39,568 bases of DNA. Origin: Cnuella takakiae (GTDB taxonomy: Bacteria > Bacteroidota > Bacteroidia > Chitinophagales > Chitinophagaceae). The DNA is taken from assembly GCF_001953305.1 (NCBI RefSeq), contig NZ_MTFE01000010.1, positions 3,930,946 to 3,970,513 of the forward strand, in the 5' to 3' direction. The notes beneath the pieces are model-generated. The model was not told the origin of the DNA. It did no database searches and was given only the letters and a program-made list of their open reading frames with translations. Shown here piece after piece: positions 4,894 through 21,185 of this stretch. A program made the translations under genes and the position numbers. The stretch's first letter is position 1. The number at the start of each line of letters is the position of its first letter.

Positions 4894-5827
4894 TTACAAA
4901 ATTTACAGATTGGGTTAAACGAACAGTGTTATCAACGTGAAGGATTTCGGGTAACTGGGCGGAAGCATTTGCCTGTCCACCCAGGAACCGACCGGCTAGG
5001 TTGCTCAGGCCCCGGGAAGCAAAAAGCAGCGATACAGTAGGCTTGGCCGATAGCAAGGTCAGGATCAAATTCTTTATAGTGCTATCACTATACTTTTTGT
5101 TGGTTGCTTCAACGATCGTGATCTGCAGGTTAGCCATGAGGAATATCTCACGCCATGTTGCGAAGACGCAGCGTTCTGCCGGTACACTCAAAACCATTGG
5201 TTGATCAAAAGGCTCTTTATCAGAACGGAGCAGGGTTGCAATATAATCTACAAGATGTTCAACTTGAATAAACACACCCGTCTTTGCTCCAGAAGAGGGC
5301 AGGTAAGCCGTCTTTACCGATCGCAACCTGTTCAAAAAAGCATCCCAATTGCCTCCTGAACCCAAAACGTTGGGAACCCTCAAAATCTTAAGGCCGGGAA
5401 TTTTTGTTGCAATCAGCTTTTTGTCGATCAGCAGTTTCAACCTGCCGTAATAAGAGGCAGGACTTGCCACATCCAGAATTTTCACTGCGCCTTCTTTCCC
5501 GTCCAGTACAGATATCGTACTCAAATGCAAACTACATTGAGGCTTGATAGCCTGTGCAAGCCGTATAAAACAACTCAGAATCTTCTTGTTCGCGAAGGGC
5601 TGTGCGCCGTCATAGGCACAATTAAGCATGCCAACTTTATTCCCCCTGCACCGTTCTATCAATTTAGTAAGGTCCGCATTATTATAGGTATAAACAGAAT
5701 GGTTCATACTGGGTGGCAAACGAAGTCCTGTGCTTGTTACCAGGTGATATTGAAAGGCAATGGAATTCAGCCGAATGAATTGCTGCGCAATAAAACTATT
5801 TGCTCCAAGAATTATAATGTGCTGCAT
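4880..5827 (-). CDS. Atypical NAD-dependent epimerase/dehydratase (SDR), partner of the GMC oxidoreductase
   Basis: Protein of 315 aa with an SDR-type Rossmann start MQHIIILGANSFIAQQFI. The third glycine of the usual GxxGxxG is replaced by Ala. Catalytic-type residues are still visible: Ser in HLSTISVLDG and YxxxK in YYGRLK, plus RVPNVLGSGGNWD in the substrate region. I use the ATG at 5827 because the Rossmann strand begins there, although this overlaps the GMC gene by 32 nt; the reading from 5869 would add unrelated residues. The C-terminal half is poorly conserved and I cannot name a substrate. Its overlap with the oxidoreductase gene suggests that the two proteins act in sequence on one sugar, for example oxidation and then reduction at the same carbon. 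That is inference. Confidence 0.78.
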   Translation of the reverse strand: MQHIIILGANSFIAQQFIRLNSIAFQYHLVTSTGLRLPPSMNHSVYTYNNADLTKLIERCRGNKVGMLNCAYDGAQPFANKKILSCFIRLAQAIKPQCSLHLSTISVLDGKEGAVKILDVASPASYYGRLKLLIDKKLIATKIPGLKILRVPNVLGSGGNWDAFLNRLRSVKTAYLPSSGAKTGVFIQVEHLVDYIATLLRSDKEPFDQPMVLSVPAERCVFATWREIFLMANLQITIVEATNKKYSDSTIKNLILTLLSAKPTVSLLFASRGLSNLAGRFLGGQANASAQLPEILHVDNTVRLTQSVNFVNDAV

Positions 5828-7313
5828 ACTGCATATTGATATGACCTGCGAGGCGTATTGCCAGAGCAATGATGGTTAACCCGGAATTTACATTTCCGGA
5901 AGTAGTGAAGACCGAACCGTCGGCTACATATAAATTACTGGTACCAAATGCAAGGCAATCTGCATCAACAACTGCGTCCGCAGCATTGACACCCATTCTA
6001 CAGGTACCAACATGGTGCGCCGCGCTGCTGAATATTTTTAGCCAGCGTTCCATCTCGAATCCTAAGGAGGTTGTAGCAAGGTCCGTATCAAAGCATTCAT
6101 CCACCAATGATACATATTTCCGCATACCTGCAATATCCTGGTCTGTAAGCTGCCAGTTTACCTTAGCTATGGGGTATCCCCATTGATCCTTGATTTGAGA
6201 AAGGGCAACACTGCTATCGAAGTTGGGCACCTGCTCAGACATTAGGAATAAGTCGGCATATTTGTAAACAACGTTGAAAGTGGTTTTATAAGCCAGAATT
6301 TGCCGGGCAAGATTTATATTGCTCATTATGGTATAAACCTGCTTCAAAGACACCTTGTAATCGCGCAATGATAAAAGCGAAAGCTTTACCTCCTCTGCTT
6401 TGTCATTGATCCCTTCCACAAACGACGGCCTGAGAAAGAAGTTGTGATTGGGCAGTTTTAATTGCCTTTGAGCTGATTCAGATAAGACCACACCGGCTTT
6501 GATTCTGGTGTTCGGTTTGTACCGGAAATCTGAAAACAGCCTTGCTTTGGTTGGGCGGCGAAACTTGAGCTGCTTGAAATTACCCATCGGATGATCCTGA
6601 AGGTAACGGCCGACATTTGCCACACCTTCCAGCGCGATGGTGGTTGAATTCAATAAAATACGGGGCGTTTCCAACGCGCCAGCACTCAAAACGATAACCC
6701 GTCCTTCGTAAAATTCAAATGCCCCGTTACGAAGTGAGAAGCATTTCACCCCTTTCATTTTCCTGCGGTCGTCTTCTGCACCACATACTTCCAAACATAC
6801 CGTATCAGTTAAGATAGTTACGTTGCTCAACCGGTTCAAGAAAGTCCGTACGCGGTATTGCGGCTCCGGTTGTTGAAAAATTTTGATCTCGAAAGCTTTT
6901 CCAAGCCGGATTGGGCTATGGTCATCAGCGAAACTCTTCTTTGCCTCCTCGGCATTAAAATACTTATAGTCGGAGATTCCCAGATCAGCTGCCGCTTTTT
7001 GATAAAAAGGCTCAAGATCATCACGGGTGATGGGCCACCCGCTCTTGGGTATCCATTCCCTTTTTCCAAAATCGACCGGATCGAGCGGCGACAAAACAGA
7101 ATGCCACAAATTTGAAGTACCTCCTAATTCAATAGAACGTGTTTCCGGCCAGTTAAAACTTCTGCCGTGCTCCTCAAAATTTACTACGTCTGATGACTTC
7201 TTTGTAGCGCCACCTGCTTCAATCAACAGGACCTTGAGTTGCGGATCAAGATACTTGGCGAGAAATGCGCCACCCAAACCACTTCCCACAATAATCATAT
7301 CATATGGTTCCAT
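5796..7313 (-). CDS. GMC-family FAD-dependent oxidoreductase
   Basis: Flavoprotein of 505 aa. The FAD-binding motif VGSGLGGAFLAKYL is at residues 8-21, then GGTSNLWH, the middle SAGALETPRILL motif, and a complete C-terminal GMC signature: HHVGTCRMG (His), VVDADCLAFGTSNLYVADGS and SGNVNSGLTIIALA (Asn). The His/Asn pair is the expected catalytic pair for alcohol or sugar hydroxyl oxidation. There is no signal peptide, so it should act in the cytoplasm, probably on a nucleotide- or lipid-linked sugar. The ATG at 7313 shares one nucleotide with the stop of the preceding gene (TGATG). The longer annotated start at 7316 is TTG and is less likely. GMC enzymes do not belong to the core O-antigen gene set, so this is an accessory sugar-modifying function of unknown product. 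Confidence 0.9.
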   Translation of the reverse strand: MEPYDMIIVGSGLGGAFLAKYLDPQLKVLLIEAGGATKKSSDVVNFEEHGRSFNWPETRSIELGGTSNLWHSVLSPLDPVDFGKREWIPKSGWPITRDDLEPFYQKAAADLGISDYKYFNAEEAKKSFADDHSPIRLGKAFEIKIFQQPEPQYRVRTFLNRLSNVTILTDTVCLEVCGAEDDRRKMKGVKCFSLRNGAFEFYEGRVIVLSAGALETPRILLNSTTIALEGVANVGRYLQDHPMGNFKQLKFRRPTKARLFSDFRYKPNTRIKAGVVLSESAQRQLKLPNHNFFLRPSFVEGINDKAEEVKLSLLSLRDYKVSLKQVYTIMSNINLARQILAYKTTFNVVYKYADLFLMSEQVPNFDSSVALSQIKDQWGYPIAKVNWQLTDQDIAGMRKYVSLVDECFDTDLATTSLGFEMERWLKIFSSAAHHVGTCRMGVNAADAVVDADCLAFGTSNLYVADGSVFTTSGNVNSGLTIIALAIRLAGHINMQYAAHYNSWSK

Positions 7314-8281
7314 CAAATACTACCTTTTAATGTTGCTAGATTCTGTTCAAAGGATGTTGGTATAAAGTTCCAGGCAGACGAATCTGCTATTCGTTGTGGC
7401 CGCTCACTGAACTGTGCAGATAAGAACAACTCCAGTTCCTCTTGGTTGTTATAAAATTGGATTCCGGTGTTCCCAAACAAAGGCCTGTAATTGGCGGCTC
7501 TGGGATAAATAGCCCGGGTCCTGTTTCGTAAAGATTCAAGCAATGAAAGCGGAAGGTTCTCTGCCGAACTAAAACTTATATGGAAGGCATAACGATGATA
7601 GGGAACAAAAGGAACATACCCCTTCAGCTGAACGTTAGGGAAAGACCCTAATTCGTCCGCCAGACTTTGCTCCACAATTTTACCATAGATGTCTATTTGC
7701 CATCGTTTCAGCTCTTTTCCCTGGTTCAAATACAACAGTAACAGGTTGTATTTTCTCCGATCAATATTGCCGACAGCTACTAGTGTTGCTTCTTTAGGAT
7801 CGACTGCCGCATACTCCTCATGCCAGACATTGGTAACCGGATTTATCAGTGTGAGGGTACTTCTACATAGAAAACCAAGTAACTTCTCAAAATAAGGATT
7901 TACAAAAATGACTTTCCTGCAAAACACAAACCCCATCAGGTACTGAGGAAAAAGATAAAGACCTTTTAAAAAATAAATCAAGGAAGCAAACATCAGTTTG
8001 GGCCAGTTGCCATGGTAGAACTGAAGTGTATTATGATTGCGAAAAAGCGGAGCAAAAATGGCATAATGGTCATCGAAGAATACCGCATCATAGTGATTTG
8101 ATCGCACTTGCAACAGTTGCTTAAAAAAGCGCCATCGTGAAAACAACTTCACATTGTGCTGATACAAGGCAATAAGGTCAACAGTGCTGCTTTTTTCGAG
8201 CGCCTGCCTATACTGCGAACTCACCCGGGTACCTCCGGTAAGCGAAGGCGACGCAATCTTAGTTACCCACAAAATCTTCAT
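7313..8281 (-). CDS. Glycosyltransferase, GT-B fold (GT4-like)
   Basis: Protein of 322 aa that starts MKILWVTKIASPSLTGGTR, the typical N-terminal strand and glycine-rich loop of GT4-like enzymes. The C-terminal half has VAVGNIDRRKYNLLLL (start of the donor domain) and SSAENLPLSLLESLRNR, a variant of the E-x7-E donor motif at about residues 250-262. A hydrophobic stretch around 115-145 could be a membrane-binding surface. The ATG at 8281 is chosen from the conserved start; it overlaps the preceding gene by 23 nt. The stop is joined to the GMC start as TGATG. Sequence is divergent, so donor and acceptor are unknown. Confidence 0.82.
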   Translation of the reverse strand: MKILWVTKIASPSLTGGTRVSSQYRQALEKSSTVDLIALYQHNVKLFSRWRFFKQLLQVRSNHYDAVFFDDHYAIFAPLFRNHNTLQFYHGNWPKLMFASLIYFLKGLYLFPQYLMGFVFCRKVIFVNPYFEKLLGFLCRSTLTLINPVTNVWHEEYAAVDPKEATLVAVGNIDRRKYNLLLLYLNQGKELKRWQIDIYGKIVEQSLADELGSFPNVQLKGYVPFVPYHRYAFHISFSSAENLPLSLLESLRNRTRAIYPRAANYRPLFGNTGIQFYNNQEELELFLSAQFSERPQRIADSSAWNFIPTSFEQNLATLKGSI

Positions 8282-9266: not shown

Positions 9267-10167
9267 AGAACACTTTATAGAAAGAAAAAACACCCTCCAA
9301 CAGCACAAGCGAACAAAGGCATATATAACCCCACTTACCCTTTGGTACCGAGGCAGACCAAAACAAAAGCATCACCAGATAAACTATTGGCAGAATCCGC
9401 CCATGGAATGGTGTGAGGACAATAGCAACCAAGTATACCGTCAAAAGTAAAAGAAAATACAAACGTGATTGTCCCTTAAGGATTGTCAATCCCAGGTAAG
9501 CAAACACCGCGGTGCGCAATAAAGGAAAGGCAGTGCTCTCCTTTTCATCAGCATACACCATGAGGTCATTTGTATAATTCTCGTATCCGGATAAAGCGAG
9601 CACCTGAAGAATAAGCAAATCCTTCAAAACATAAAAAACGGCAAAGGTAATTAAGAGAATTAAGACCACTGGCTTCCAGTTTCGGATAGTGCGGTACATC
9701 AGCTGAAACCCGATGACTATAAAACTCAGTGAATGACTTGCCATACTGAACACGGCCTTCATGGAAAATTTCTTTGGCGGGTCGAAAAATGCTGGAACTA
9801 TCAAAAGAACGGCAGTTCCAAATCTGAAGTTCTGGAAGCAAAACCATGGAACGACAAACCCTATAGTAAACACTCCCAGCAGCAACAAAGCAGCAGGTGA
9901 CGGGTCCAACTTTGAATAAGCCTTAGCAAAACTATTGAATGAAAGCGCTAGCAAGAGCGCTACAAAGAACCAGAAAACGTGAAAACTTCCAAAGGCGAAT
10001 CCAATCGTCTTCCCCATGAGGCTGTACAGGCCATAGCCATCGGCCACTTCCGAAGGAAAACTTTCCCAGGTAGAAAAAAAGTCACGCCCAAGATTCTGAA
10101 AAGGAGGAAAGACCCTTATCAAAGTGGCTAAAAAAACCAGTACGCTTAACATCACTCGGGCAGGCAT
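9256..10167 (-). CDS. EpsG-family-like polysaccharide polymerase (Wzy function)
   Basis: Integral membrane protein of 303 aa with about eight to nine hydrophobic segments. The pattern resembles EpsG-type polymerases: an N-terminal segment, a polar loop GRDFFSTWESFPSEVADGYGLY, then PWFCFQNFRFGTAVLLIVPAFF (position of the Arg-containing motif, about residues 110-130) and SMASHSLSFIVIGFQL with the conserved His-Ser. It is slightly short for the family (about 350). It lies among glycosyltransferases in the block that also has its own Wzx, the usual setting for the repeat-unit polymerase. The ATG at 10167 overlaps the upstream stop as TGATG. The function is inferred from topology, motif and context, not from strong similarity. 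Confidence 0.75.
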   Translation of the reverse strand: MPARVMLSVLVFLATLIRVFPPFQNLGRDFFSTWESFPSEVADGYGLYSLMGKTIGFAFGSFHVFWFFVALLLALSFNSFAKAYSKLDPSPAALLLLGVFTIGFVVPWFCFQNFRFGTAVLLIVPAFFDPPKKFSMKAVFSMASHSLSFIVIGFQLMYRTIRNWKPVVLILLITFAVFYVLKDLLILQVLALSGYENYTNDLMVYADEKESTAFPLLRTAVFAYLGLTILKGQSRLYFLLLLTVYLVAIVLTPFHGRILPIVYLVMLLFWSASVPKGKWGYICLCSLVLLEGVFSFYKVFYAS

Positions 10168-11249
10168 CAAATTTCAACGTTGTTCCAAACAGACACAAAT
10201 TTCTCTGCAACATCAAGGCTGTTGTGATATTTCTGCACAAAGCGGCTGCCATTGCATTTCACCAGGTACATCAATCCTGGATCATTGACATACTTGCGCA
10301 CCACAGCCGCAATTGCAGCAGGGTCGGGAATAATGTTGACTAACGGCTCTTCTTTTATTCCAAAGCTGTCCATGAACTCCGGCTCACATCCCCCGAACAC
10401 CAAACGACCGTGCATCATGTTGATCAGGGCGTTCATACCCGGATCATAGCAATTAGCCTGATCAAAAATACCGTCGGCTTGTTTGATTAGGTGCAGGTAC
10501 TCTGTGAAAGGTAAATTCTCAACCGTTCTAAATTGCACTAAGCCCCTGGTTTCCTGCTCCAATAAAGATATTGCCTGGTCAATATACCAGCTTCCCTTAA
10601 AGCCATGGCGGCCAGATTGGCGGCCATGGATGAACAGCATTGGCGCAACTGATTGCCGGGGCTCGTCGAGCGTATCCCCAGGAAAATAAACCGGGAACGG
10701 GATATTGGCGAGGTATTTCGGATGACGCTGGTAAGCAATCTGGTAGCTTGCTGCACCGGTTATGATTCCCGATACATTTGCCTCTAGAAAAAGGGAATAC
10801 TCTTTGAACTTGCCGTACTCCCAAACACTTTGTTCTGCTTTATAATCGAATTTCAACGCATCGGCATGTGGTGAATACCGGAATGCTTTCTCACGAAAGG
10901 CCTGCCAATATCGGTAATCGTCACCAACAGCATACATGAACACCCGGGGGGCCCTTTTCAACAAGCTACGGAACGGATTGCGCAAATGAAACCGGGAAAA
11001 AATCCCAGGATTGACAATTTGGATAACATCAAACCCCTTTGCTGATCGCACAAAATGTTCCTCCAGTACGATACGCTCTAATCCGGCTAGGATTTTGTTT
11101 TGGACTTTCGGCTTAAGATCATACTCCCGCTGAAAATTTTTGAAGTTATCGCCTGTGCTTGCAACCACCACGTCATGTCCAAGCATCCGAAGTGCCTTTG
11201 CGAGATTACTATGAACAGCACTAAAATCTCCTACTAAAAGAACCCGCAT
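10167..11249 (-). CDS. Glycosyltransferase, GT-B fold (family 1/4-like)
   Basis: Protein of 360 aa beginning MRVLLVGDFSAVHSNLAKAL, a GT-B N-terminal Rossmann strand. The middle reads FIHGRQSGRHGFKGSWYI, the HGR-x-GxKG pattern seen at the start of the donor domain of many divergent O-antigen transferases. Downstream, IKQADGIFDQANCYDPGMNALINMMHGR occupies the position of the donor-binding motif. The usual Glu of E-x7-E is not obvious, so the family number is uncertain. No signal peptide or membrane segment is seen. The start and stop are both joined to neighbours by one-nucleotide TGATG overlaps, so it belongs to the same translationally coupled series. Confidence 0.78.
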   Translation of the reverse strand: MRVLLVGDFSAVHSNLAKALRMLGHDVVVASTGDNFKNFQREYDLKPKVQNKILAGLERIVLEEHFVRSAKGFDVIQIVNPGIFSRFHLRNPFRSLLKRAPRVFMYAVGDDYRYWQAFREKAFRYSPHADALKFDYKAEQSVWEYGKFKEYSLFLEANVSGIITGAASYQIAYQRHPKYLANIPFPVYFPGDTLDEPRQSVAPMLFIHGRQSGRHGFKGSWYIDQAISLLEQETRGLVQFRTVENLPFTEYLHLIKQADGIFDQANCYDPGMNALINMMHGRLVFGGCEPEFMDSFGIKEEPLVNIIPDPAAIAAVVRKYVNDPGLMYLVKCNGSRFVQKYHNSLDVAEKFVSVWNNVEI

Positions 11250-12703
11250 CAGGCATTATTTTTCCGTAAACTATTTCTAAACACGATTAACGAAAAGGCA
11301 ATTGCTGCAGCAATGAACACCCAGATCCAAACAAAGCTACCTGCTACTGCGAAGGTGAAATGCAACAGATACATGAACCCGTAAGTGATGACTGCTGCCA
11401 GCAGCAGCATTCCATTGAGTTTCGAAAGCCTGAATGTCACCAACCGATTAACAATGATATACATCTGGACGGCATAAACGGCATTTGCCAACACCAACGC
11501 GATTGCCAATCCCTCAAGTCCCAGCCAGTGATAGCAAAGGATGTTTATGATAACAGTGTATATACCAGCAATAAGCTCATTGACGAAATAGAACCGGGAA
11601 GAGCCTTTTGCAATCAGAAGGTAGGCCAAAGCCCACGACACCGACCTGAGTATGTTACTGAATCCGGCAATAACAATCATACGCTTCAAAACCAGGAAAT
11701 CTTCTGCATAGAGTAACCTGATCACCGTTTCGTGCAGGCCTGAAAAAACACACATCATTGGCAGCAGAATGAGTAGCGTGAACTCAATCTGTCTGTTTAC
11801 ATCGTCCCGCAAACCATTAGGGTTATTAACCTTCGAGGCGATGCGAGGAAAGAAATCTGTGGCCAGCACAGTAAAGAAAAGCCCGGTATAGGAATACGTA
11901 ATCGAATAAACCGCACTGTAGTAGCCCAGCTCAGATAAGGACCCTTCCTTTGTGATGTATAGTCTAATACAGTAAGCCACTACCTGGCCAATGAGTGATG
12001 CCAGGTTGAGTACAAAGCCAAGCTTCAGCATGGGCAAACTTGCTCTGAGCGTTTGCACCCAGGGCAGCTTTGCCGCAATGGTCTTATCAATCAATCGCTT
12101 TCTTCCAAGAAGGTGAATACTGAAAAATGAAGTGAAGGCCAATACAAGAAAGCTGATCGATATGCTGTCCGGACCGGCAAAGAAAAATATGGGCAAGGCT
12201 ACAGTTATACCTACAAGATTGCTGATTAAGCCGGCATAGGCGATAACCTTCAACGACCTTAGCCCCTGATGGATTGAATAAAGCGAATTGTAAAGCTGTG
12301 TAAAGAATATTGATCCGGCAAGGTATAGAAAGACCCTGTAGTTTGCAGTTCCATTGAGCAGTGTGCGATCAAGTACTCCGGAAAGTAAAACACAACAAAG
12401 CGTGGCAATCGAAGCAAGGACAATATTGAGCCCCTTGATTGACTGCAGCAAGGAACTGAGTCTGCCGCTTTCGTTTTCTTCCCGTGCAGCTGCGATCTCT
12501 TTCACGCCACTCACTGGCAATCCAAAACCAGAGATATTCAGAATTAGCTGCTGGGTACTTTGTAAAATGGTAAAAACCCCAAGACCCGATGCACCAAACA
12601 AAAGCGAAATTACCTTTGCCCTGATCACAGAGGACAACAAGCCCAGCACCTGTACAACGCCGAGAATCGAAGAAGTTTTGAAAAGCTCCTTGTACTTACT
12701 CAT
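11249..12703 (-). CDS. wzx: Wzx-type lipid-linked oligosaccharide flippase (MATE/MOP superfamily), first copy
   Basis: Polytopic membrane protein of 484 aa with about 12-14 hydrophobic segments spread through the whole length. It begins [21 protein letters not shown], with GASGLGVFTILQSTQQL and a conserved GLPVSGVKEI near the end of helix 2, typical of Wzx/RfbX. It would move the finished undecaprenyl-PP repeat unit to the periplasm. The ATG at 12703 overlaps the stop of the aminotransferase gene as TAATG. It is only distantly similar to the second Wzx at 28028-29269, so the two are not a recent duplication; each sits with its own polymerase. Confidence 0.92.
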   Translation of the reverse strand: MSKYKELFKTSSILGVVQVLGLLSSVIRAKVISLLFGASGLGVFTILQSTQQLILNISGFGLPVSGVKEIAAAREENESGRLSSLLQSIKGLNIVLASIATLCCVLLSGVLDRTLLNGTANYRVFLYLAGSIFFTQLYNSLYSIHQGLRSLKVIAYAGLISNLVGITVALPIFFFAGPDSISISFLVLAFTSFFSIHLLGRKRLIDKTIAAKLPWVQTLRASLPMLKLGFVLNLASLIGQVVAYCIRLYITKEGSLSELGYYSAVYSITYSYTGLFFTVLATDFFPRIASKVNNPNGLRDDVNRQIEFTLLILLPMMCVFSGLHETVIRLLYAEDFLVLKRMIVIAGFSNILRSVSWALAYLLIAKGSSRFYFVNELIAGIYTVIINILCYHWLGLEGLAIALVLANAVYAVQMYIIVNRLVTFRLSKLNGMLLLAAVITYGFMYLLHFTFAVAGSFVWIWVFIAAAIAFSLIVFRNSLRKNNA

Positions 12704-13818
12704 TACTTGTTGAAAAAAGCTTTGATAGCGGTGCTTACCTGGTTGGCCTGCTCAAAGGTCATCCCTGGAAACAGTGGCAGGCTCAAACAAGTACTCGCAA
12801 TTTCTTCTGCTATCGGAAAAGCACCTTTTGCATGGCCTAAGTGTTTGTAGGCCTCCTGCAGATGTGGCGGAATAGGATAATGAATCAGTGTACCGATTCC
12901 TTCCTGGGTAAGAAACTGTTGTAACGCATCTCTTTTTGTGGTTCGGACCACATAGAGGTGAAACACATGCGTAGCGTCGGGGTGCACATAAGGTAGAATC
13001 AAATCACCTACCCTGTTCAATAACTCGTTGTACCAGCTGGCAATCTCCTGACGCTGAACTGTCCACCTTTGCAGGTGACGCAACTTCACTTCAAGTATAC
13101 CGGCCTGCAGTTCATCCAGGCGCATGTTATGTCCAATCGTTTCGTTATGATACTTGACCTGGCTACCGTAATTGCGGAGCACCTTTACCTTCTTTGCAAT
13201 TTCAGCATCGCTTGTTGTAACAGCCCCGGCATCACCAAGTGCACCTAGGTTCTTTCCAGGATAAAAGCTGGTACCATTGGAATGACCCCAGCTCCCAGTT
13301 GGCTTGCCTGCGAAGGTGGCTGAATGCGCCTGGGCATTATCTTCCACTACTTTCAACCTATGGCGTTCGGCAATTTCCATAATAGCCGCCATTTCACAAC
13401 ATTGACCGTAAAGATGCACCGGCATAATCGCCTTGGTTTTGGCAGTTATGGCAGATTCAATCCGTAATGGATCGATGTTATAAGTGCGGGGATCCGGTTC
13501 TACAAATATAGGAGTAGCGCCGAGGTAAGAAACGGCAAGTGCAGTAGCAATATACGTATTTGAAGGCACGATAACTTCATCACCTTGGGTAATACCAAGT
13601 ACTTTCAAGGACAGGTAAAGCGCATCCAGACCATTACTTACACCAATTGCATAGGGAGTACTGTTGAACTGTGCATAAGCGCTTTCAAAAGCTGAAACAC
13701 GATTCCCAAGTACATACCAATTGCTATCGTAAACAGCGTTGAATGCCAGAGTTATTTCATCTTTAATTTCCGAATGGCTTGGCGAAAAGTCTAAGAAAGG
13801 AACCTTCATCATCGACAT
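12703..13818 (-). CDS. DegT/DnrJ/EryC1 sugar aminotransferase, FdtB/QdtB-like
   Basis: PLP-dependent enzyme of 371 aa that transfers an amino group from glutamate to a keto sugar nucleotide. Seen: KVPFLDF at the start, [13 protein letters not shown] (cofactor phosphate site), [11 protein letters not shown] with the PLP-ring Asp160, and the Schiff-base Lys189 in [17 protein letters not shown]. Together with [13 protein letters not shown], this motif set matches the subfamily that aminates C-3 of dTDP-3-keto-6-deoxyhexoses (FdtB/QdtB). Two 3,4-ketoisomerase-like genes in the same block supply such a substrate. Predicted product: dTDP-Fuc3N or dTDP-Qui3N. MSMMKVPF allows starts at 13818, 13812 or 13809; the last gives the family-standard MKVPFLDF. 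Confidence 0.92.
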
Positions 13819-13830
13819 AAGAATATTGAA

Positions 13831-14772
13831 CTAAACAAATTGAGCATTGGTAAGCACATGTACACACTTCCCGTATTTACAACCCAGTTTTTCATAGGAA
13901 TGTATTACTGCACGGTTCGTAGTGGCCGGGTGCATAAAGGCATAGTCAGCACCATTCTCATGAAGATGAAATGCCATTTCGCTGATCAGCTTGATGTACC
14001 AACCTTTGCAGGTTTCTCCAGACACGGCTGATAAAACCATCTTTGAAATCTTTGCGCCTATCGCACTCCATTGATCCGTCAGGTAATTGGCCGTTACAAA
14101 AGCGTCCGGCGGAAAACCCGGCTCATCGGGAACGATACAAACATCCGCAAACCCTTTAATTGATTCCTCAACATAAGTGGCAAGGAACTCATCAGCCCGT
14201 TCTTGAGAGAAGATCGTTTCCGCGTGGAACCGGTCATAGTCGTTCCGCATCATACGGGCAACGCGCTTCAGGTTCTCAGTATCATCCTGAGTTGCCTTTC
14301 GAACCAGATACCGCTCATGTTTGAAAGAAGGCAGATGCAGGTAATAAGTGAGTCGACTTTCTACCAGCTTGAAGCATGATTCTCCCAAAGCCTGAATCAG
14401 GACTATATCTTCGCTAGGAAGCTCACAAAAGAAATAGGCTTTCTTCCCGCGAACATAACCCGCACTATACTCCTCCACTGCACGTTTTAATATTGTATAG
14501 GAGTTGTGGTTGTACAGGACATAAAGTAACTTATAGGTAGTAATACCAAAGTAGTCAGAGTCCCACTTCAGAAACTTTGTGACAAAAACATGTGCATAAC
14601 CGTCGATTGAAACTTCAAAGAAGTCAACTGAGGCATCGCCTCTTAGCGCTTCAATGTGATGAATTACGGTTGCGTCAACAATCTTTTTCCGGTCTACTGC
14701 TGGTAGAAAACTGTATGGTGAATAATGAAAAAGGATCGGCGCTCGCGCAAAAAGCAGGTCATTTAAGCCCAT
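13831..14772 (-). CDS. GNAT-type N-acyltransferase (WecD-like), candidate aminosugar acyltransferase
   Basis: Protein of 313 aa with two parts. The first about 150 residues contain KFLKWDSDYFGITTYKL, the WDSxxFG signature at the start of WecD/RffC-type dTDP-aminosugar acetyltransferases. Residues 155-310 form a GNAT-like domain starting YLVRKATQDDTENLKRVA and ending NRAVIHSYEKLGCKYGK, the usual last strand-helix. The acyl-CoA loop (about 245-258, SGETCKGWYIKLI) lacks the full G-x-G-x-G/A pattern, which may reflect a different acyl donor. It lies between the aminotransferase and the SDR/KAS III pair. The natural idea is that it acylates the 3-amino group with the acyl chain those enzymes build; this is inference. 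The known enzymes for Fuc3N and Qui3N (FdtC/QdtC) are of a different, hexapeptide-repeat fold. Confidence 0.8.
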   Translation of the reverse strand: MGLNDLLFARAPILFHYSPYSFLPAVDRKKIVDATVIHHIEALRGDASVDFFEVSIDGYAHVFVTKFLKWDSDYFGITTYKLLYVLYNHNSYTILKRAVEEYSAGYVRGKKAYFFCELPSEDIVLIQALGESCFKLVESRLTYYLHLPSFKHERYLVRKATQDDTENLKRVARMMRNDYDRFHAETIFSQERADEFLATYVEESIKGFADVCIVPDEPGFPPDAFVTANYLTDQWSAIGAKISKMVLSAVSGETCKGWYIKLISEMAFHLHENGADYAFMHPATTNRAVIHSYEKLGCKYGKCVHVLTNAQFV

Positions 14773-15458
14773 CAGATTATGCCCCCGTTTAAGTTAATGT
14801 TTGTACCAGTTAAATATTCGCTTTTCCGGATATATTCAACGGTGTTGAAAATATCTTCCTGTGCGCATAGCTTGCCAATGGGTATTTTCTTGAGGATGGC
14901 ATTAAGGTATTCCTGAGGCACCTGACTAATCATACCCAGCTCAGAATATCCGAGGTTGATATTATTGATGGTTATGCCCTTACCTGCATTCTCCACCGCA
15001 ATCGACTTAACAAGTCCGGTTAAGGCAGATTTTGAAGCGGCATAAGCACTGATGCCTGGCGAAGGCAATTCCGATACCACTGAACCAAAGTTGATGATAC
15101 GACCATAGGATTGGTCGCGCATTAAAGGAAGAAAGGCTAGGATGACTTTGAAAGTACCTATCACATTGACGTTGATAACTTCTGCCCATTTCTCGATGTC
15201 AGATTTATGTGCAAAAGAGTTGTAGTTGATAGCGGCACAATTAACAATTGTGATTCTACTGAGCCGTTCAGCATTCTGTTTGACCCATCCTGCCAGTGCA
15301 ACATGATCACAGATATCCATCCGGACAAACTCACCATCCTTACCTTCACTTTCAACAATTGTATTGTTGAAAAAGCCTATTACCTCTTCGCCTTTGTTAA
15401 TGTATTCGGTCATCAGATAATGACCAATTCCTTTTGATGCACCAGTTATGATAATCAT
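14772..15458 (-). CDS. SDR-family ketoreductase, FabG-like
   Basis: Classical short-chain dehydrogenase of 228 aa. The cofactor motif TGASKGIG is at residues 5-12, NCAA at 73-76, Ser126 in NFGSVVS, and Tyr139/Lys143 in YAASK; the C-terminal end is SEYLTGTNINLNGG, as in FabG (YITGQ-x-x-VDGG). The ATG at 15458 is placed on the Rossmann strand MIIITGASKGIG, 10 bp after the KAS III gene; a reading from 15509 would overlap that gene with unrelated residues. Beside a FabH-like condensing enzyme it probably reduces the 3-ketoacyl product to a 3-hydroxyacyl chain. The alternative is a sugar ketoreductase. Its stop is joined to the acyltransferase start as TGATG. Confidence 0.86.
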   Translation of the reverse strand: MIIITGASKGIGHYLMTEYINKGEEVIGFFNNTIVESEGKDGEFVRMDICDHVALAGWVKQNAERLSRITIVNCAAINYNSFAHKSDIEKWAEVINVNVIGTFKVILAFLPLMRDQSYGRIINFGSVVSELPSPGISAYAASKSALTGLVKSIAVENAGKGITINNINLGYSELGMISQVPQEYLNAILKKIPIGKLCAQEDIFNTVEYIRKSEYLTGTNINLNGGII

Positions 15459-15468
15459 GCTATTGTGT

Positions 15469-16461
15469 TTACGCCCACTTGATGAGTGCAGCACCATATG
15501 TCCAGCCACTACCTACAGCAGCAAAGAGAATAGTTGAGCCAGAATGAATTTTGCCGGCTTTTAATGTTTCGTGCAGAATAATGGGAATAGTAGCGCCTGA
15601 AGTATTTGCATAACGATCCATGTTGGTCATTACTTTCTCAAAAGGCAGGTTGATCAATTCAGCAGTTTTTTGAAGAATTCTTACGCTGGGTTGATGAGGA
15701 ATCAATAGATCAATATTTTCAATAGTCATCCCTGCATCTTCAAGCACCTGCCAGATAGCTTTGGGAAGCACTTCAGTTGCAGTTTCGTAGACTGCACGTC
15801 CGTTCATTCTAAATGTATGCAAATTCTGCTCTAGTGTATTGTGATTTGTAGGTGACTCAGAGCCACCACCAGGAATTGTAAACTCAAATTTGCCTTTACC
15901 ATCCGTGTACAATCGGTAGGCTAAAAATCCGGTTTGTTCGCAGGCAGCAGAAAGTATCGCTGCTCCAGCGCCATCACCAAAGAAAACGGCATCCCGTCTT
16001 GTCCAGTCCGTAATTTTAGAAAACGTATCTGCTCCAATAACCAAAACATTGTTATATACGCCGCTAGCTATATATTGGGATGCCACAGACATTGCAAAAA
16101 GGAAACCGCTACATACAGCAGATATATCAAAGGCAGCAGCATTCACAGCCCCAATTTTATCGTGCACAATTGCTGCGGTAGAAGGTGCAAGCCGGTCAGG
16201 AGTTGCTGTTGCTAGAATTATAAGTTCGATATCCGCTACTTTCAAACCAGCATCTTCAATTGCGTCCAATGCAGCTTGAGCTGCAAGGTCACTGGTGGCT
16301 TGTTCAGCGCTGCTTATGCGCCTTTCTTTTATACCCAAGTTCTGTCTGATCCATTCATCGGTTGTTTGTAAACGTGACGCTAACTCTGCATTTGTAAGCA
16401 CAGTTTCCGGCACACACATACCTGTTCCAATGATCTTAGCGTTGCGTACAATCTGTTTCAT
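15469..16461 (-). CDS. 3-oxoacyl-ACP synthase III family (FabH-like) enzyme
   Basis: Condensing enzyme of 330 aa with the complete KAS III triad: Cys117 in ISAVCSGF, His256 in IPHQPSVRI and Asn286 in YANTSGATIP. The Gly-rich FGDGAGAAIL and C-terminal LFAAVGSGWTYGAALIKW are also typical. KAS III joins a short acyl-CoA to malonyl-ACP. Located inside an aminosugar operon, it is unlikely to be the housekeeping copy. With the SDR that follows it could make a short 3-hydroxyacyl group (for example 3-hydroxybutyryl) for the GNAT enzyme to attach. No acyl carrier protein gene is seen, so the cellular AcpP would have to serve. The ATG at 16461 overlaps the upstream stop as TGATG. Confidence 0.93.
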   Translation of the reverse strand: MKQIVRNAKIIGTGMCVPETVLTNAELASRLQTTDEWIRQNLGIKERRISSAEQATSDLAAQAALDAIEDAGLKVADIELIILATATPDRLAPSTAAIVHDKIGAVNAAAFDISAVCSGFLFAMSVASQYIASGVYNNVLVIGADTFSKITDWTRRDAVFFGDGAGAAILSAACEQTGFLAYRLYTDGKGKFEFTIPGGGSESPTNHNTLEQNLHTFRMNGRAVYETATEVLPKAIWQVLEDAGMTIENIDLLIPHQPSVRILQKTAELINLPFEKVMTNMDRYANTSGATIPIILHETLKAGKIHSGSTILFAAVGSGWTYGAALIKWA

Positions 16462-16868
16462 CAGCTATTTACAAAATTTACATAATCAGTATACTCACGG
16501 ATATAATCCGATTCGCTATAAACGTGAGAAGCAAGGACAAGACAAATGGAACCACTTGAGAAATTGATTTCAGACGCCCAAATACCAGGTGGAATATGCA
16601 AACCCAGATTAGGTCTATTGAGTAATACCTGACGACGGGTGCGACCATCGTCCAATAAAACTTCGAATGCACCACTTGCTGCAATAAGAAACTGGTGACA
16701 CTCTTTATGTGCATGAGCACCTCTTGATTCTCCTCCCGGGATATCGTATAAATAAAATATCCTATTGATAGCGAATGGAAAATTGCGGTTACCCTCTACT
16801 GCTGTTATATTGCCGTTCCGATTGCCAATTTGAGGTAGGAACAATAAATTACAATCGTAAACTGTCAT
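16461..16868 (-). CDS. WxcM/FdtA/QdtA-like cupin: dTDP-4-keto-6-deoxy-glucose 3,4-ketoisomerase (second of two tandem copies)
   Basis: Double-stranded beta-helix (cupin) protein of 135 aa. The family core INRIFYLYDIPGGESRGAHAHK has both active-site histidines (His52 and His54), followed by Gln59 at the usual conserved position. LNRPNLGLHIPPGIWASEINFSSGSICLVLAS and SESDYIREY complete the match. Enzymes of this family move the keto group of dTDP-4-keto-6-deoxy-D-glucose from C-4 to C-3, giving the gluco (QdtA) or galacto (FdtA) isomer. The substrate requires RmlA/RmlB, which are not in this window. It overlaps the first copy by 4 nt (ATGA). Which isomer it makes cannot be told from sequence. 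Confidence 0.9.
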   Translation of the reverse strand: MTVYDCNLLFLPQIGNRNGNITAVEGNRNFPFAINRIFYLYDIPGGESRGAHAHKECHQFLIAASGAFEVLLDDGRTRRQVLLNRPNLGLHIPPGIWASEINFSSGSICLVLASHVYSESDYIREYTDYVNFVNS

Positions 16869-17266
16869 TGCTTGTAATTAAGATATTGGTCGAGGTCACG
16901 AATATAATCCTGCTCCAAATATTCTGTACTGCTTAAATGGAGGCCTAAGGCATTTGTTGAGAAATTTTCCATATGTCTCCAAGTACCTGCAGGCAAATAC
17001 AAGCCATAATAAGAGCGATTCAATGAAAACTTCTGAGTGTAGCCGTTTGAAAGCATTATTTGTACATCAAAGCTTCCACTTAACGCAACTATAATCTCTT
17101 GTTGGGTCTTGTAAGCATGACCACCTCGCATTTCGCCACCAGGGACATCATAGGTCCAAAATACACGTTTGATAACGAAAGGAACTTGCTGAGGGCTTTG
17201 TAAAAAGGTGAGGTTACCTCTTGGATCAAAAATTTTGGGGAATTCTAAAAGTTTCGGTTTATCCAT
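16865..17266 (-). CDS. WxcM/FdtA/QdtA-like cupin, first tandem copy, with altered active-site motif
   Basis: Cupin of 133 aa, clearly paralogous to the following gene: IKRVFWTYDVPGGEMRGGHAYK, LNRSYYGLYLPAGTWRHMENFS, LHLSSTEYLEQDYIRD. The strongly conserved HAHK is HAYK here (His50 kept, second His replaced by Tyr52), and the Gln five residues on is Glu. Since both histidines matter for catalysis in characterised FdtA/QdtA enzymes, this copy may have a different specificity, a changed mechanism, or a role as a subunit partner of the intact copy. The ATG at 17266 is the first gene of the left block, after a 487-bp gap with a candidate promoter. It ends in an ATGA overlap with its paralogue. Confidence 0.88.
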   Translation of the reverse strand: MDKPKLLEFPKIFDPRGNLTFLQSPQQVPFVIKRVFWTYDVPGGEMRGGHAYKTQQEIIVALSGSFDVQIMLSNGYTQKFSLNRSYYGLYLPAGTWRHMENFSTNALGLHLSSTEYLEQDYIRDLDQYLNYKQ

Positions 17267-17661
17267 GCTTTGTCGGATTAAGGATATTCAGATTACATGC
17301 TAAATAAAACAGAAAGCTATAAGTGCTTACGTCCTGCGCTATTTCATAAACAACATTTGTGCATTTCAAATTTTAAAAGGTAATGAAGATCACATCAAAT
17401 TTCCTACTCCAGGATCTTAATCTTTTATTGAATTCCCCCAAAATGAAGTTTAGAGATTAGTGCTGCTAAAATGATAAATTACAACACAACCACACAACTT
17501 TTCTTGGAATAAATACATTAAAAAGCATTTTCTTGTTACCTCCATGTAAACTAATAAAACATTACTATTCCTTCTACCCCACTTACTTATGAAAGGACTA
17601 AGTAAAACAGCAATAGCATGAATAATTACTTGCCAGGTAGGTTTGAAAATCAATAATGGCG

Positions 17662-17693
17662 CAAAACTAGTTTAAAAAAAGATGTATTACCAA
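17662..17693 (-). promoter_or_regulatory. Candidate Bacteroidota-type promoter of the left block
   Basis: On the minus strand a perfect TAnnTTTG element (TAGTTTTG, 17669-17662) is preceded by TTG at 17693-17691 with about 21 nt between them. This matches the -33/-7 arrangement of the Bacteroidota primary sigma factor. Transcription would start near 17655. The motif is short, so a chance match in AT-rich DNA is possible. Its position directly after the palindrome that follows the preceding gene supports it. Confidence 0.45.
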
Positions 17694-17717
17694 GCTAGAT
17701 AAATTTTATTTTTATAA

Positions 17718-17741
17718 CAGAAAGAATACTTATTCTTTCTG
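17718..17741 (-). terminator. Perfect 11-bp palindrome after the right block, possible terminator
   Basis: CAGAAAGAATA (17718-17728), two bases, then TATTCTTTCTG (17731-17741). It lies 13 bp downstream of the stop of the Wzz-like gene, the place expected for a terminator. The following minus-strand sequence is A/T-rich but not a clean U-tract, so it is either a weak intrinsic terminator or an mRNA 3'-end stabilising hairpin. Confidence 0.5.
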
Positions 17742-17753
17742 CATTGTTATGAA

Positions 17754-18830
17754 CTAACTTTTGTAACCAATAAAAATAGAAAGAACGAACAATGTTACTG
17801 CCGCCACCAATAGTGCCGTCATTCCCATTATCAATATCAATGGAGCTTTATTCTTCTTCAACGGCAACTCCGGCTCATCCACCACCTGCACCGTAGGGGT
17901 TTCCTGTATCAGCGCCGTACGGCTGATCTCCAGGTTTTTCATTACCTCGGCGTAGATGGCCGATTGCACAGCTTTGTCGCGACCCGAAATTTCAGCTACC
18001 GCATCAGGAGTTGTGTACACAGGATTCAGATCGAGCAGCATTTTCCCACTGGCGGCAGCCGAGTAGGTTTTGCGGTTCAGTACCCTTTCCAAGGTATCTG
18101 CTTTTCCTTGCAGACGGGCCACATTTGTAGATAATCGGCGGGTACGCGTATCTATAAAAAAATCGATCGCTGTTTTGAGCAGGCGCCTGCTGAATTGTTC
18201 TGCAAGCAGTTCGTCACGCATGGTGACATTGAGTTCAAAAAAGCCCAGCTTACGGTCAGGTTTCGCCACCGATAAGTCTTCTTCCACCACATGTTTGATG
18301 ATTACCTGGAGCAGGCTATCTTCTACCCTACCCTTTTGCTTTCCGGGCATAAACTTTACAGCATATCCAACCTTCTTGCTTTTGGCCCATTTTTCCTGCC
18401 AGTGTTTGCTGCTGGCATAGCGGTCGGCGAGGGTTTCCATACTGCTGCTGTCAGTGCGTGTCAATAAGGTCTTCTTGATCAACGATCGGCTTTTAAGCAG
18501 TTCCAATACGTTATCGCCGGCCAATACGCCACTGCCACCACCTGCCATACTGCCTACATCAAATCCAAACTGACCGGCAATGGCTGAAAGCATGCCGCCC
18601 GATGATTTAGTATCTTCCACCACAAAGGTGGTGCGGGCAACGTAGGTAACTGGCTTGAGGTAGGCATAAGTTGCTCCTATTACCATTCCCAACAAGGCGG
18701 CCGAACCCCACCATTTCCACTGCCTTAGGGCAAAGCGCAATCGCTTTCCTTTGGCTGCCAGATCTTCCCGGAACGAGTAGTCATCGTCCGCGTCGGTGGC
18801 CATTACAGTAGATACATTATGCTGGTTCAT
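17754..18830 (-). CDS. Wzz/PCP-type chain-length and co-polymerase protein without kinase domain
   Basis: Inner-membrane protein of 358 aa. A cytoplasmic N-terminus of about 40 residues precedes TM1 (GSAALLGMVIGATYAYL, about 42-58), then comes a large periplasmic domain starting VARTTFVVEDTK with a Gly-rich GGMLSAIAGQFGFDVG segment. The motif ETPTVQVVDEPELPLKKNK precedes TM2 (about 330-350), the usual Pro-rich end of PCP proteins. No Walker A or Tyr-rich tail follows, so a BY-kinase partner would have to be encoded elsewhere. It follows the Wza-like gene by 18 bp; the pair controls polymer length and export. It is a clear paralogue of the protein at 35381-36433, with nearly the same motif order. 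Confidence 0.92.
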   Translation of the reverse strand: MNQHNVSTVMATDADDDYSFREDLAAKGKRLRFALRQWKWWGSAALLGMVIGATYAYLKPVTYVARTTFVVEDTKSSGGMLSAIAGQFGFDVGSMAGGGSGVLAGDNVLELLKSRSLIKKTLLTRTDSSSMETLADRYASSKHWQEKWAKSKKVGYAVKFMPGKQKGRVEDSLLQVIIKHVVEEDLSVAKPDRKLGFFELNVTMRDELLAEQFSRRLLKTAIDFFIDTRTRRLSTNVARLQGKADTLERVLNRKTYSAAASGKMLLDLNPVYTTPDAVAEISGRDKAVQSAIYAEVMKNLEISRTALIQETPTVQVVDEPELPLKKNKAPLILIMGMTALLVAAVTLFVLSIFIGYKS

Positions 18831-18848
18831 GGAAACCTTCTAATTAAA

Positions 18849-21140
18849 TTAATTACGCAGTACCGAGATCAGGCTGATCAGGGCGGTTAGCATTCCAGTT
18901 ACTGCCGACACTTCCAGGAAGTTTACTCCCCGACGGCCACCCAAGGGTGCTTCCGGGACAATGATCCGGGAACCCGGCCTGACAGAAGGATAGTTCCGGA
19001 AAAATAGGAAGCGTCGCGTTTTACGGTTGATGCCATTGCTGTACTGCACATAGGCTTTTTTGAGGTTGCCGCCATCTGTAGCCCCACCTGCGGCCGATAT
19101 ATACGACATAAACCGCCGTCCCTGATAACTTACGATCTGGGGATTGAACACCTGCCCCATCACTTCAACAAAAGGATCGTTGCGCGGAATAAAAACACTG
19201 TCCGAGGGCAGCAACAGGAAGGCCTGTTCTTTTCCTTGAAACAAGTTGGTACCAACCCGCAGTCCGTTGCGGTAAACCTGTACATTGGAAGCCGAGGCAA
19301 GCGGGGTAATGCCGCCAGCGCGGGACAGGAGTTCCTGAACCGTTTCGTTGCGGCGTTCCAGCACATAGTCGCCGGGGTAAAGCACCTCACCGCGCAGCCT
19401 TACCGAACCTAGGCTATGATAATTGAGCAGGCGGGGCACAAAAATATGATCAAGCGGTTGCAGGGTATGGGCAGCAGCCTGTCCGCCGGGTTGCAGGGTA
19501 CTGTCCACCTGAAGCGCAATTACCTGCATCAGTTGGTTGGCCAGGGTATCGGCTTCATTGCGCACCAGCCGTGACACTTCAACGCGATGCAGGGCCGCAT
19601 CGGGCAGGTAGCCACCTGCCATCAGGATTGCGTCTTCTACTGTCATTCCCGGGTGATAAGTTACGGACCGGGGCTGTTGTACACTGCCGGCTATCGTTAT
19701 CACCTGCATCACTTGCAGATTGTCTTTAGACGCTATAAAAACGGAATCGTCTTTTTGTAACCTGATATCTCCCTGTCCACGCATTACCTGTGCTGGATTG
19801 AAAGGAATCAAGCTTCTTTCGGTTTCAGCACCATTCCGGCGCCTGATAAAGGCACGGGTGGTAAATGCATCTTCCCGCAACCCATTGGCCCTTTCCAATA
19901 ATGCTTTTACAGTAAGATTGTCTGTCAACTCAAAATCTCCGGGCCGGGCAACAGCCCCCTGCAGGTGAATGCGGTTGGCGAAGCGCACCTGCAATTTTTC
20001 AAAATAAACGGAGTCGGCATTGCGTGGTATAAAATAGGCAAAATCAGCCTGCGCAACATCGCGGAACCGGCGCTCCGACTGATTTAACTGCGCAACCTTG
20101 GCAACAGTTTCTTGTGCCGAGTCGGCGGTGCCGCCAGCATAGGCCAGCAGGTCGGAAAGGGTTTCCTTTTCCAGCAGCTCGTAAATAGCAGGTCGCTTTA
20201 CCGCACCTGAAAGTGCCACTCTTTTTGTATAAACGGGGAAACGAATAACATCCTGATCTTCCAGGCGAATATTGTTATTCAGGATACCTTTTGCAAGGAA
20301 ACTGTAGAAGTCAATCTCGGCCACTACCCTATTGCCCCTGATCAGTTCAATGCGGCGCAACGAGCCATTAGTGGTGGGGCCACCTGCCAAGTATAAAATA
20401 TTAAAAAGACTGGAAAGCCCGGAAACACGGTAAGTACCCGGGTTAGCGGCTTCACCAATCACGGTAATCCCAATAGAGCGCACATTGCCCAGGCTAACAT
20501 TTAGCTGGGTACGGCCGCTGGCCAGTGCAGGATATACATTCAGCAACTTGCTTCGGATGCGCTGGCGGGCAGCATCCACGCTTAGGCCATTCAGTTGTAA
20601 AAAACCGGCATGGGGTATTTCCACCCTTCCGTCGCGGTCTACCACCCGGCTTATAGACCGTTCGTTCATCCCTGTTACATCGATATTGAGTTCATCGCCT
20701 GGGCCTAAAACATAGTTTCCGGGAGTGCTGGTATTAAAAGCCGGTTCGTAACTAACACCAGTGCGGCTGAAAAACTCGTAACCAAAATAAGGATTGGGTT
20801 TGCGGGGAATAGGCACCTCTTTCACCCAGTTGCTGTCGCGTTCAAAACGTGCGGTATCGGCATTGCGGATGGCATTGGGATTATTCACCCGTGCCCCACC
20901 CTGCAAACCGCTGAGTCTTTTTTTCAGGGCACTTATCTCTGTAGCCGACATGCCCCGCTGCACCAGCAGGTTCATAATATCAGCTTCCGACATGCCTGCG
21001 CTTTGCCCCTGTTTTACCAGTTGCATCAGCTGATCGTCGGAGAGGTTAAGGTTATTGCCGCGCTGTGCGCCTCCAGCCAGCTGTATCAACAGCAAGCAGG
21101 CCAAAACAAGGAAGCGCAGCAATGAGGTATTGAATTTCAT
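18849..21140 (-). CDS. Wza-like outer-membrane polysaccharide export protein with six SLBB-type repeats
   Basis: Secreted protein of 763 aa, about twice the length of E. coli Wza. The ATG at 21140 starts a signal peptide (about 25 residues, ending near LAGGAQ); the longer start is TTG. A helical region (about 30-80) has two similar units, GMSEADIMNLLVQRGMSATEIS. The Poly_export domain begins at YVLGPGDELNIDVTG (about 145). Six SLBB-like turns follow: GEAANPGTY, GAVKRPAIY, GAVARPGDF, GSVQQPRSV, GEVLYPGDY and GQVFNPQIV. A hydrophobic C-terminal helix (VSAVTGMLTALISLISVLRN) occupies the place of the Wza barrel helix. No lipobox Cys is seen. It lies 45 bp after the WcaJ-like gene and 18 bp before the PCP partner. 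Confidence 0.93.
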   Translation of the reverse strand: MKFNTSLLRFLVLACLLLIQLAGGAQRGNNLNLSDDQLMQLVKQGQSAGMSEADIMNLLVQRGMSATEISALKKRLSGLQGGARVNNPNAIRNADTARFERDSNWVKEVPIPRKPNPYFGYEFFSRTGVSYEPAFNTSTPGNYVLGPGDELNIDVTGMNERSISRVVDRDGRVEIPHAGFLQLNGLSVDAARQRIRSKLLNVYPALASGRTQLNVSLGNVRSIGITVIGEAANPGTYRVSGLSSLFNILYLAGGPTTNGSLRRIELIRGNRVVAEIDFYSFLAKGILNNNIRLEDQDVIRFPVYTKRVALSGAVKRPAIYELLEKETLSDLLAYAGGTADSAQETVAKVAQLNQSERRFRDVAQADFAYFIPRNADSVYFEKLQVRFANRIHLQGAVARPGDFELTDNLTVKALLERANGLREDAFTTRAFIRRRNGAETERSLIPFNPAQVMRGQGDIRLQKDDSVFIASKDNLQVMQVITIAGSVQQPRSVTYHPGMTVEDAILMAGGYLPDAALHRVEVSRLVRNEADTLANQLMQVIALQVDSTLQPGGQAAAHTLQPLDHIFVPRLLNYHSLGSVRLRGEVLYPGDYVLERRNETVQELLSRAGGITPLASASNVQVYRNGLRVGTNLFQGKEQAFLLLPSDSVFIPRNDPFVEVMGQVFNPQIVSYQGRRFMSYISAAGGATDGGNLKKAYVQYSNGINRKTRRFLFFRNYPSVRPGSRIIVPEAPLGGRRGVNFLEVSAVTGMLTALISLISVLRN

Positions 21141-21185
21141 ATTGTTCAAAGGGACAAAAGAGGCGCAAATATCGGTATTACCGGG

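Follow-up and report, generated by a model that had tools for sequence, protein, structure and literature searches.

A six-gene module in a Cnuella takakiae polysaccharide cluster, predicted to make an N-hydroxyacylated 3-aminosugar, carries an unequal pair of FdtA-like proteins

Results

Organization of the module

The Cnuella takakiae DNA analyzed here (39,568 nucleotides of contig NZ_MTFE01000010.1, assembly GCF_001953305.1, positions 3,930,946 to 3,970,513; hereafter the window, to which coordinates without a locus number refer) holds a run of six open reading frames (ORFs) at 12703-17266, all open and all on the minus strand, that are predicted to build an acylated aminosugar (Table 1). 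In order, they encode two FdtA-like proteins (a and b), a ketoacyl synthase III (KAS III), a short-chain dehydrogenase/reductase (SDR), a WecD-like GNAT protein and a QdtB-like aminotransferase. From protein a to the aminotransferase, successive genes overlap by 4 nt, overlap by 1 nt, are separated by 10 nt, overlap by 1 nt and are separated by 12 nt; this ORF listing agrees with a preliminary description, made from the DNA letters, of six genes at these coordinates joined by overlaps of 1-4 nt or gaps of at most 12 nt. The polysaccharide cluster around it is long and encodes sugar transferases, an EpsG-like protein, a flippase and two Poly_export proteins.

Table 1. Genes of the module and adjoining features of the window
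Feature	Position	Strand	Evidence
FdtA-like protein a, first gene; cupin of the FdtA family with HAY replacing HAH	16865-17266	-	PF05523, 143.4 bits; motif
FdtA-like protein b, intact HAH	16461-16868	-	PF05523, 173.7 bits
KAS III, FabH type	15469-16461	-	TIGR00747, 332.2 bits against a cut-off of 292.1; FabH matches in the PDB
SDR, FabG/PhaB-like	14772-15458	-	adh_short, 124.6 bits
WecD-like GNAT with N-terminal extension	13831-14772	-	Sub-threshold WecD matches; predicted WecD fold
QdtB-like pyridoxal phosphate (PLP) aminotransferase (sugar 3-aminotransferase)	12703-13818	-	DegT_DnrJ, 390.2 bits
Wzx-type flippase, next gene of the run after the aminotransferase	11249-12703	-	PF13440 and PF01943
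487-bp gap 5' of the module	17267-17753	-	ORF coordinates; a promoter would be expected here

A conserved, unequal pair of FdtA-like proteins

Both FdtA-like proteins score above the Pfam cut-off of 23 for the FdtA family. They differ in the HxH motif, whose histidines we take to be catalytic active-site residues: protein b reads HAH, whereas protein a reads HAY and has lost the second histidine. The PDB matches of protein b comprise 12 sequences, all of the FdtA/QdtA/WxcM type, and the PDB alignments include FdtA variants with Asn at one or the other of the two histidines. Protein b is thus a probable thymidine diphosphate (TDP)-4-keto-6-deoxyglucose 3,4-ketoisomerase, while protein a is probably a partner subunit or an altered isomerase, an unequal partner subunit being its most likely role as judged from the sequence. 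The preliminary description had called both proteins ketoisomerases. Membership of the family holds for both and the motif for protein b, but because protein a reads HAY beside a partner with HAH, it is doubtful that both have this activity.

To see how widespread the pair is, we used two sets of loci: 62 with the same GNAT (L012-L073, from a scan of a genome collection with a four-sequence GNAT alignment) and 29 drawn with protein a (L133-L161). The latter are the regions retrieved around 29 of the 48 other places found when protein a was searched against the genomes of the phylum, which gave matches in 41 of 395 genomes at E 1e-33, its own included. A script that looked for tandem FdtA pairs covered 94 sources (part of the window, L009-L073 without L026, which is the same place as L009, and L133-L161) and found 34 pairs; these counts are not independent, since protein a itself was the query that yielded 29 of the loci, and some of the loci are closely related to each other. 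The second histidine is lost from the first gene in 34 of the 34 pairs (18 HAY, 11 HAF, 4 HSY and 1 HAK). The second genes read HAH in 30 cases, HSH in two, HGH in one and HIT in the last (L139), where we regard the reading as a pattern error because the same protein shows RGAHAHK. Outside the pairs, 65 of 66 FdtA domains carry HAH; the exception (L157, HAF) has a HAH protein about 800 bases away. This conserved unequal pair is the most surprising observation of the analysis, and it raises a directly testable question, namely the role of the histidine-less partner.

KAS III and SDR

The catalytic residues reported in the preliminary description are present in both enzymes: Cys117, His256 and Asn286 in the KAS III, and Ser143, Tyr156 and Lys160 in the SDR, whose likely start is the ATG at 15458 (residue 18 of the longest ORF). 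The best PDB matches of the SDR are 3-oxoacyl-ACP (acyl carrier protein) and acetoacetyl-CoA (coenzyme A) reductases. By sequence, the KAS III is a probable acetoacetyl-thioester synthase and the SDR a probable 3-ketoacyl-thioester reductase.

Among the 395 genomes of the phylum, a KAS III reaches E 1e-90 or better in five besides the window's own. In one locus, L081, which belongs to a different polysaccharide cluster, the KAS III (71% identical) and the SDR (56%) form a unit that follows a GNAT (PseH match below threshold) and precedes a flippase; no FdtA or QdtB was found on this 6.2-kb contig. Beside this second cassette, the ORF at L081:385-1338 was considered as an aminotransferase and dropped, having no Pfam, NCBIfam or PDB match. 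In L082-L085 the KAS III is 57-61% identical to that of the window. Three of the four adjoin a fabI-like gene (L083 by the Pfam reductase family, L084 and L085 by eye) and are taken for that reason to lie in a fatty-acid context; near the KAS III of L082 there is neither an SDR nor an FdtA of the window type.

The GNAT acyltransferase

The GNAT has no Pfam match and falls below the curated WecD cut-offs (31.4 vs 195.1 bits for TIGR02382 and 44.6 vs 219 bits for PRK10975). Its structure model nevertheless shows the WecD fold over the full domain, with the TDP-fucosamine acetyltransferase WecD as the closest match. The two proteins are 16% identical, and the module's GNAT differs in having about 60 extra N-terminal residues and a 3- rather than a 4-aminosugar context. 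It is a probable N-(3-hydroxyacyl)transferase for a TDP-3-aminosugar; both the model and the relatives described below support the earlier proposal that a WecD-like GNAT here takes the place of a hexapeptide acyltransferase. The protein is rare, occurring in 2 of 394 family genomes and 3 of 395 phylum genomes, its own included.

The preliminary description had called the acyl-CoA loop degenerate and thus suited to an ACP-bound donor. In an alignment of the family G257 is present in 37 of 37 rows, followed in most by W and Y or H, and the same loop occurs in members without KAS III; we have therefore rejected this argument. In a tree of the 37 sequences, in which 17 of 34 inner branches are starred and 12 open, one clade (99/97) is made up of the four GNATs that accompany KAS III and SDR (window, L012, L013 and L028), with L015, which has only the SDR, as sister (100/99). 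These five share His281-Pro282-Ala283, while 32 of 32 others have Thr282-Gln283. General GNAT anatomy would place residues 281-283 near the acyl group. Since the five form one clade, the change counts as a single event and is no proof of specificity.

An exchangeable slot for acyl-building genes

The exact six-gene order of the window recurs in L012, L013 and L028 (the last two being near-copies), so the module is no chance neighbourhood. Between FdtA b and the GNAT lies a slot whose contents vary. It is empty in L009 and L022, holds an SDR alone in L015 (with ketoacyl reductases as its best matches) and a MaoC hydratase in L030 (90.1 bits). A MaoC gene lies about 2.7 kb past the aminotransferase in L020, and in L029 an SDR lies more than 3 kb from the GNAT. 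Many other GNAT loci, mainly from Hymenobacter, combine the GNAT with a single FdtA and the aminotransferase, the last sometimes further off or not seen. As the four-gene core occurs without KAS III and SDR, these two look like an added supplier. The comparison thus supports the view that the core (two FdtA-like proteins, GNAT and QdtB-like aminotransferase) builds an N-acylated sugar, with KAS III and SDR as a plug-in donor supply, and with it the earlier proposal of a 3-aminosugar core served by a hydroxyacyl supply.

The loci with tandem FdtA pairs extend this picture. Acyl-building genes (KAS III, SDR, MaoC, ACP, HpcH/CitE lyase or AMP ligase) follow 11 of the 34 pairs, and in 9 of the 11 the aminotransferase comes after them, so that they stand between it and FdtA b; in the other two, L147 and L150, the retrieved DNA does not extend as far as an aminotransferase. 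In L136, FdtA b is followed by MaoC, an LpxA-like hexapeptide protein, KAS III and a weak ACP-like stretch; in L142 by a hexapeptide protein and KAS III with an adjoining ACP gene; and in L150 by an SDR, KAS III and a MaoC-SDR fusion. The KAS III of these three loci is only 29-31% identical to that of the window, so the enzyme probably came into such loci on more than one occasion. In L133 (1491-4354) the pair is accompanied by two HpcH/CitE lyases, a mesaconyl-CoA-hydratase-like MaoC and a NeuD/PglB/VioB-like acyltransferase (below cut-off), a possible pathway to a malyl-like amide on the 3-aminosugar. In L147 (2-5137) it lies by an ACP, an asparagine-synthase-like protein (by eye), an AMP ligase and a hexapeptide protein, which suggests a different amide chemistry in the same slot. 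L155 and L160 have acyl-building genes outside the slot, L155 with a MaoC and a lyase like those of L133 nearby. Lone hexapeptide or FemAB-like acyltransferases follow other pairs (by Pfam for L148 and L156, otherwise by pattern or eye; the hexapeptide proteins were flagged by pattern, with a Pfam check on some only); against the FemAB cut-off of 22, the protein of L135 scores below (16.6) and that of L156 above (29.9). That varied acyl-building genes converge on the slot beside the FdtA pair is the strongest sign that the acyl donor is made by the slot genes.

Aminotransferase, sugar precursors and donor carrier

The assignment of the last gene as an FdtB-like aminotransferase is borne out by its Pfam score, by the presence of the PLP lysine (residue 189) and by its best PDB match, QdtB (3frk, 415 bits; the next match scores 365). 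QdtB as the best match gives a weak lean on the stereochemistry at C4 (3-amino-3,6-dideoxyglucose, Qui3N, or 3-amino-3,6-dideoxygalactose, Fuc3N). RmlA is encoded elsewhere in the genome (482 bits, above cut-off). Two RmlB-like copies, near-identical by eye, also lie elsewhere (L087:1354-2190 and L086:1435-2268; G000:C1:4658869 and G000:C1:1815568). Each is broken by a short run of N and neither reaches the curated score, probably because of this interruption in the assembly; the N runs are probably an assembly artefact of duplicated sequence.

The carrier of the acyl chain may be CoA or ACP. The genome has one PF00550 match, about 2.8 Mb away on the same contig. As SDR-only and MaoC-only variants exist, CoA and a housekeeping ACP both remain candidates, and an SDR alone or a MaoC hydratase in the relatives fits CoA substrates equally well.

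Proposed pathway and alternatives

From the gene identities, catalytic residues, conserved order, predicted WecD fold and exchange of slot genes, all of them observed, we infer a pathway of which every reaction, the chain length, the carrier (CoA or ACP) and the stereochemistry at C4 are proposals. RmlA and RmlB would make TDP-4-keto-6-deoxyglucose; the FdtA-like pair, with b catalytic and a as its unequal partner, would shift the keto group to C3, where the QdtB-like enzyme would transaminate it. KAS III would condense malonyl-ACP or malonyl-CoA with an acyl-CoA, probably acetyl-CoA; reduction of the product by the SDR would give a 3-hydroxyacyl thioester, and the GNAT would move the 3-hydroxyacyl group onto the 3-amino group. 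We consider it likely that the product of the module is a TDP-3-amino-3,6-dideoxyhexose whose amide is a short 3-hydroxyacyl group, 3-hydroxybutyryl being the simplest case, and that it is destined for a surface polysaccharide of the Wzx/Wzy type.

Several observations weigh against this pathway. The preliminary description had suggested looking for co-occurrence of the six families; the order does recur in three loci, but with the window proteins as queries KAS III and SDR appear together in only 3 of the 62 GNAT loci, two of them near-copies. Among 388 genomes of the family of genome G631, a KAS III at E 1e-128 was found only in G631 itself. Resolution of the KAS III tree is poor, with 2 of 12 inner branches starred and 59/89 for the cassette group, and the six-gene relatives have an aminotransferase that shares only 49% identity with that of the window. 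The His-Pro-Ala change in the GNAT may reflect inheritance rather than specificity, and the MaoC-bearing L030 retains Thr-Gln. No ACP gene was matched in the window at E 1, nor any at better than E 0.6 in L012, L013, L028 and L081. The slots of L152, L153, L154 and L157 were not resolved, and we found no polysaccharide structure or enzyme assay for this module.

The alternative that survives best, though we think it unlikely, is a different acyl chain: KAS III might start from another acyl-CoA (branched or longer), or housekeeping fatty acid synthesis enzymes might extend the chain, giving a branched or longer hydroxyacyl amide. The starter choice of KAS III is not readable from these data, and in Flavobacterium psychrophilum, in the accessible part of the account, a 3,5-dihydroxyhexanoyl group is associated with two ketosynthases and one ketoreductase (PMC6519341). 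The module, however, holds one ketosynthase and one reductase, with no dehydratase or second ketosynthase, and the SDR-only or MaoC-only relatives would fit a four-carbon unit from common metabolism. Less probable again is that the GNAT transfers acetyl, like WecD, with KAS III and SDR working towards something else, either a lipid or a further decoration of the polysaccharide. In 57 of the 62 GNAT loci, some on short contigs, the stretch from FdtA to GNAT showed no KAS III, SDR or MaoC, so the basic donor of the family may be acetyl-CoA. Yet KAS III and SDR sit inside the four-gene core, overlapping their neighbours or lying a few bases from them in the window, in an order kept in three loci, and different acyl-building genes take the same place in others.

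CerJ-like KAS III proteins are reported to act as acyltransferases, and a KAS III beside sugar genes would formally fit such a role on the sugar. We hold this to be very improbable in view of the intact triad, the full-length FabH match above cut-off, the 57-59% identity to the three KAS III genes that adjoin fabI-like genes and the separate GNAT already in the module. That the substrate of the SDR is the sugar (a keto intermediate, say) and not the acyl chain would fit the presence of the SDR in L015 without KAS III but is the least probable of all, as an SDR of this type lies beside the GNAT in only 4 of the 62 loci, travels with KAS III to L081, away from any FdtA or QdtB found, and best matches ketoacyl reductases.

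Returning to the module as a whole, the points of greatest interest are the unequal FdtA proteins and the acyl slot with its exchangeable genes, and both may belong to something wider. Somewhat short of an even chance, in our estimate, is a two-subunit TDP-sugar ketoisomerase shared by many members of the phylum. In it, a catalytic FdtA would work with an always-upstream, histidine-less partner that has taken a new role (as part of an obligate heteromer, or in a proton transfer of another kind that leads to an unusual sugar), and the two would be coupled to an interchangeable N-acyl slot: acetyl-type groups, 3-hydroxyacyl groups made by SDR, MaoC or KAS III with SDR, malyl-like groups made by CitE-type lyases, and ACP-loaded acids supplied by AMP ligases. 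If so, the acyl decoration would be predictable from the slot genes, and a slot readable from the genome would be linked to a chemical decoration that is usually solved strain by strain with nuclear magnetic resonance (NMR). The natural variants (empty, SDR only, MaoC, KAS III with SDR, lyases, ACP with ligase) amount to a ready-made swap experiment on the evolution of sugar acyl groups.

Neighbouring genes and genome setting

The host genome measures 5.7 Mb. G+C around the module is 0.39-0.46, similar to the 2-12 kb stretch and below the 0.48-0.52 at 18-30 kb. In L012, too, a protein 33% identical to the window flippase comes after the module. A protein of about 360 residues, alike by eye, is encoded a gene or so after the aminosugar module at 10167-11249, L012:12519-13613 and L022:12330-13445; the window and L012 copies have no Pfam match, and the protein is possibly an undescribed glycosyltransferase family. 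Within the glycosyltransferase region lies a GMC oxidoreductase gene (5796-7316; PF05199, PF00732), to our knowledge an unusual companion of polysaccharide genes. The one cluster has two separate pairs of a Wzz-like protein (by eye, with no Pfam match for those of the window) and an SLBB/Poly_export protein, at 17754-21149 and 35381-39064, as if there were two export systems or a duplicated cluster edge.

Comparison with known systems

The closest published gene set is the viosamine island of Pseudomonas syringae pv. tabaci 6605 (vioA, vioB, vioS, vioR and acp), which is described, in the accessible part of the paper, as supplying KAS III, ketoacyl reductase, ACP and acyltransferase for an N-(3-hydroxy-1-oxobutyl) sugar; mutants were analyzed by mass spectrometry and the vioR mutant was without the modified sugar (PMC3927599). 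As far as that account goes, the island resembles the module in acting on a TDP-aminosugar and in holding KAS III, ketoacyl reductase, aminotransferase and acyltransferase genes in one run. It differs in its 4-amino sugar, its dedicated ACP, its flagellin target and the absence of a ketoisomerase among the seven genes named there. The module thus has a viosamine-type gene set but not the dedicated ACP. VioB is a hexapeptide acyltransferase, of another family than the window GNAT. Fatty-acid genes also occur in flagellar glycan islands, according to the portions of two further reports that we could consult (PMC4875605, PMC7874193).

In a related group, the O-polysaccharide genes wfpC-wfpG of Flavobacterium psychrophilum encode a reductase and two ketosynthases along with an ACP and a PglD-like enzyme, their roles being predicted and the 3,5-dihydroxyhexanoyl group seen by NMR (PMC6519341). 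On the available text, this system shares with the module a surface polysaccharide and ketosynthase and reductase genes that adjoin a sugar N-acyltransferase, but it uses UDP-Qui2NAc4N, two ketosynthases, an ACP of its own and a PglD-like acyltransferase. The predicted sugar itself recalls the products of FdtA/FdtB/FdhC and QdtA/QdtB/QdhC (E. coli O103, Acinetobacter and Hafnia alvei), which make TDP-Fuc3N and TDP-Qui3N with N-acylation by an (R)-3-hydroxybutyryl group (PMC4869667). Like the pathway predicted for the module, these combine ketoisomerase and aminotransferase with subsequent N-acylation; unlike it, they have a single 3-hydroxybutanoyltransferase named, and the accessible part of that paper names no KAS III, reductase or second ketoisomerase alongside.

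Assembly lines of this kind are therefore already known, and the suggestion that the present one is little described has to be narrowed, since vioA/S/B/R/acp and wfpC-G have been published. In the open-licence literature (titles and abstract starts, weak evidence of absence), no paper among the matches listed dealt with tandem FdtA proteins with a lost histidine or with KAS III and SDR beside a WecD-like GNAT. Set against these systems, what was not seen in the titles and abstract starts listed is the combination: a 3-aminosugar core, a WecD-like GNAT, KAS III and SDR without an ACP, and an unequal FdtA pair.

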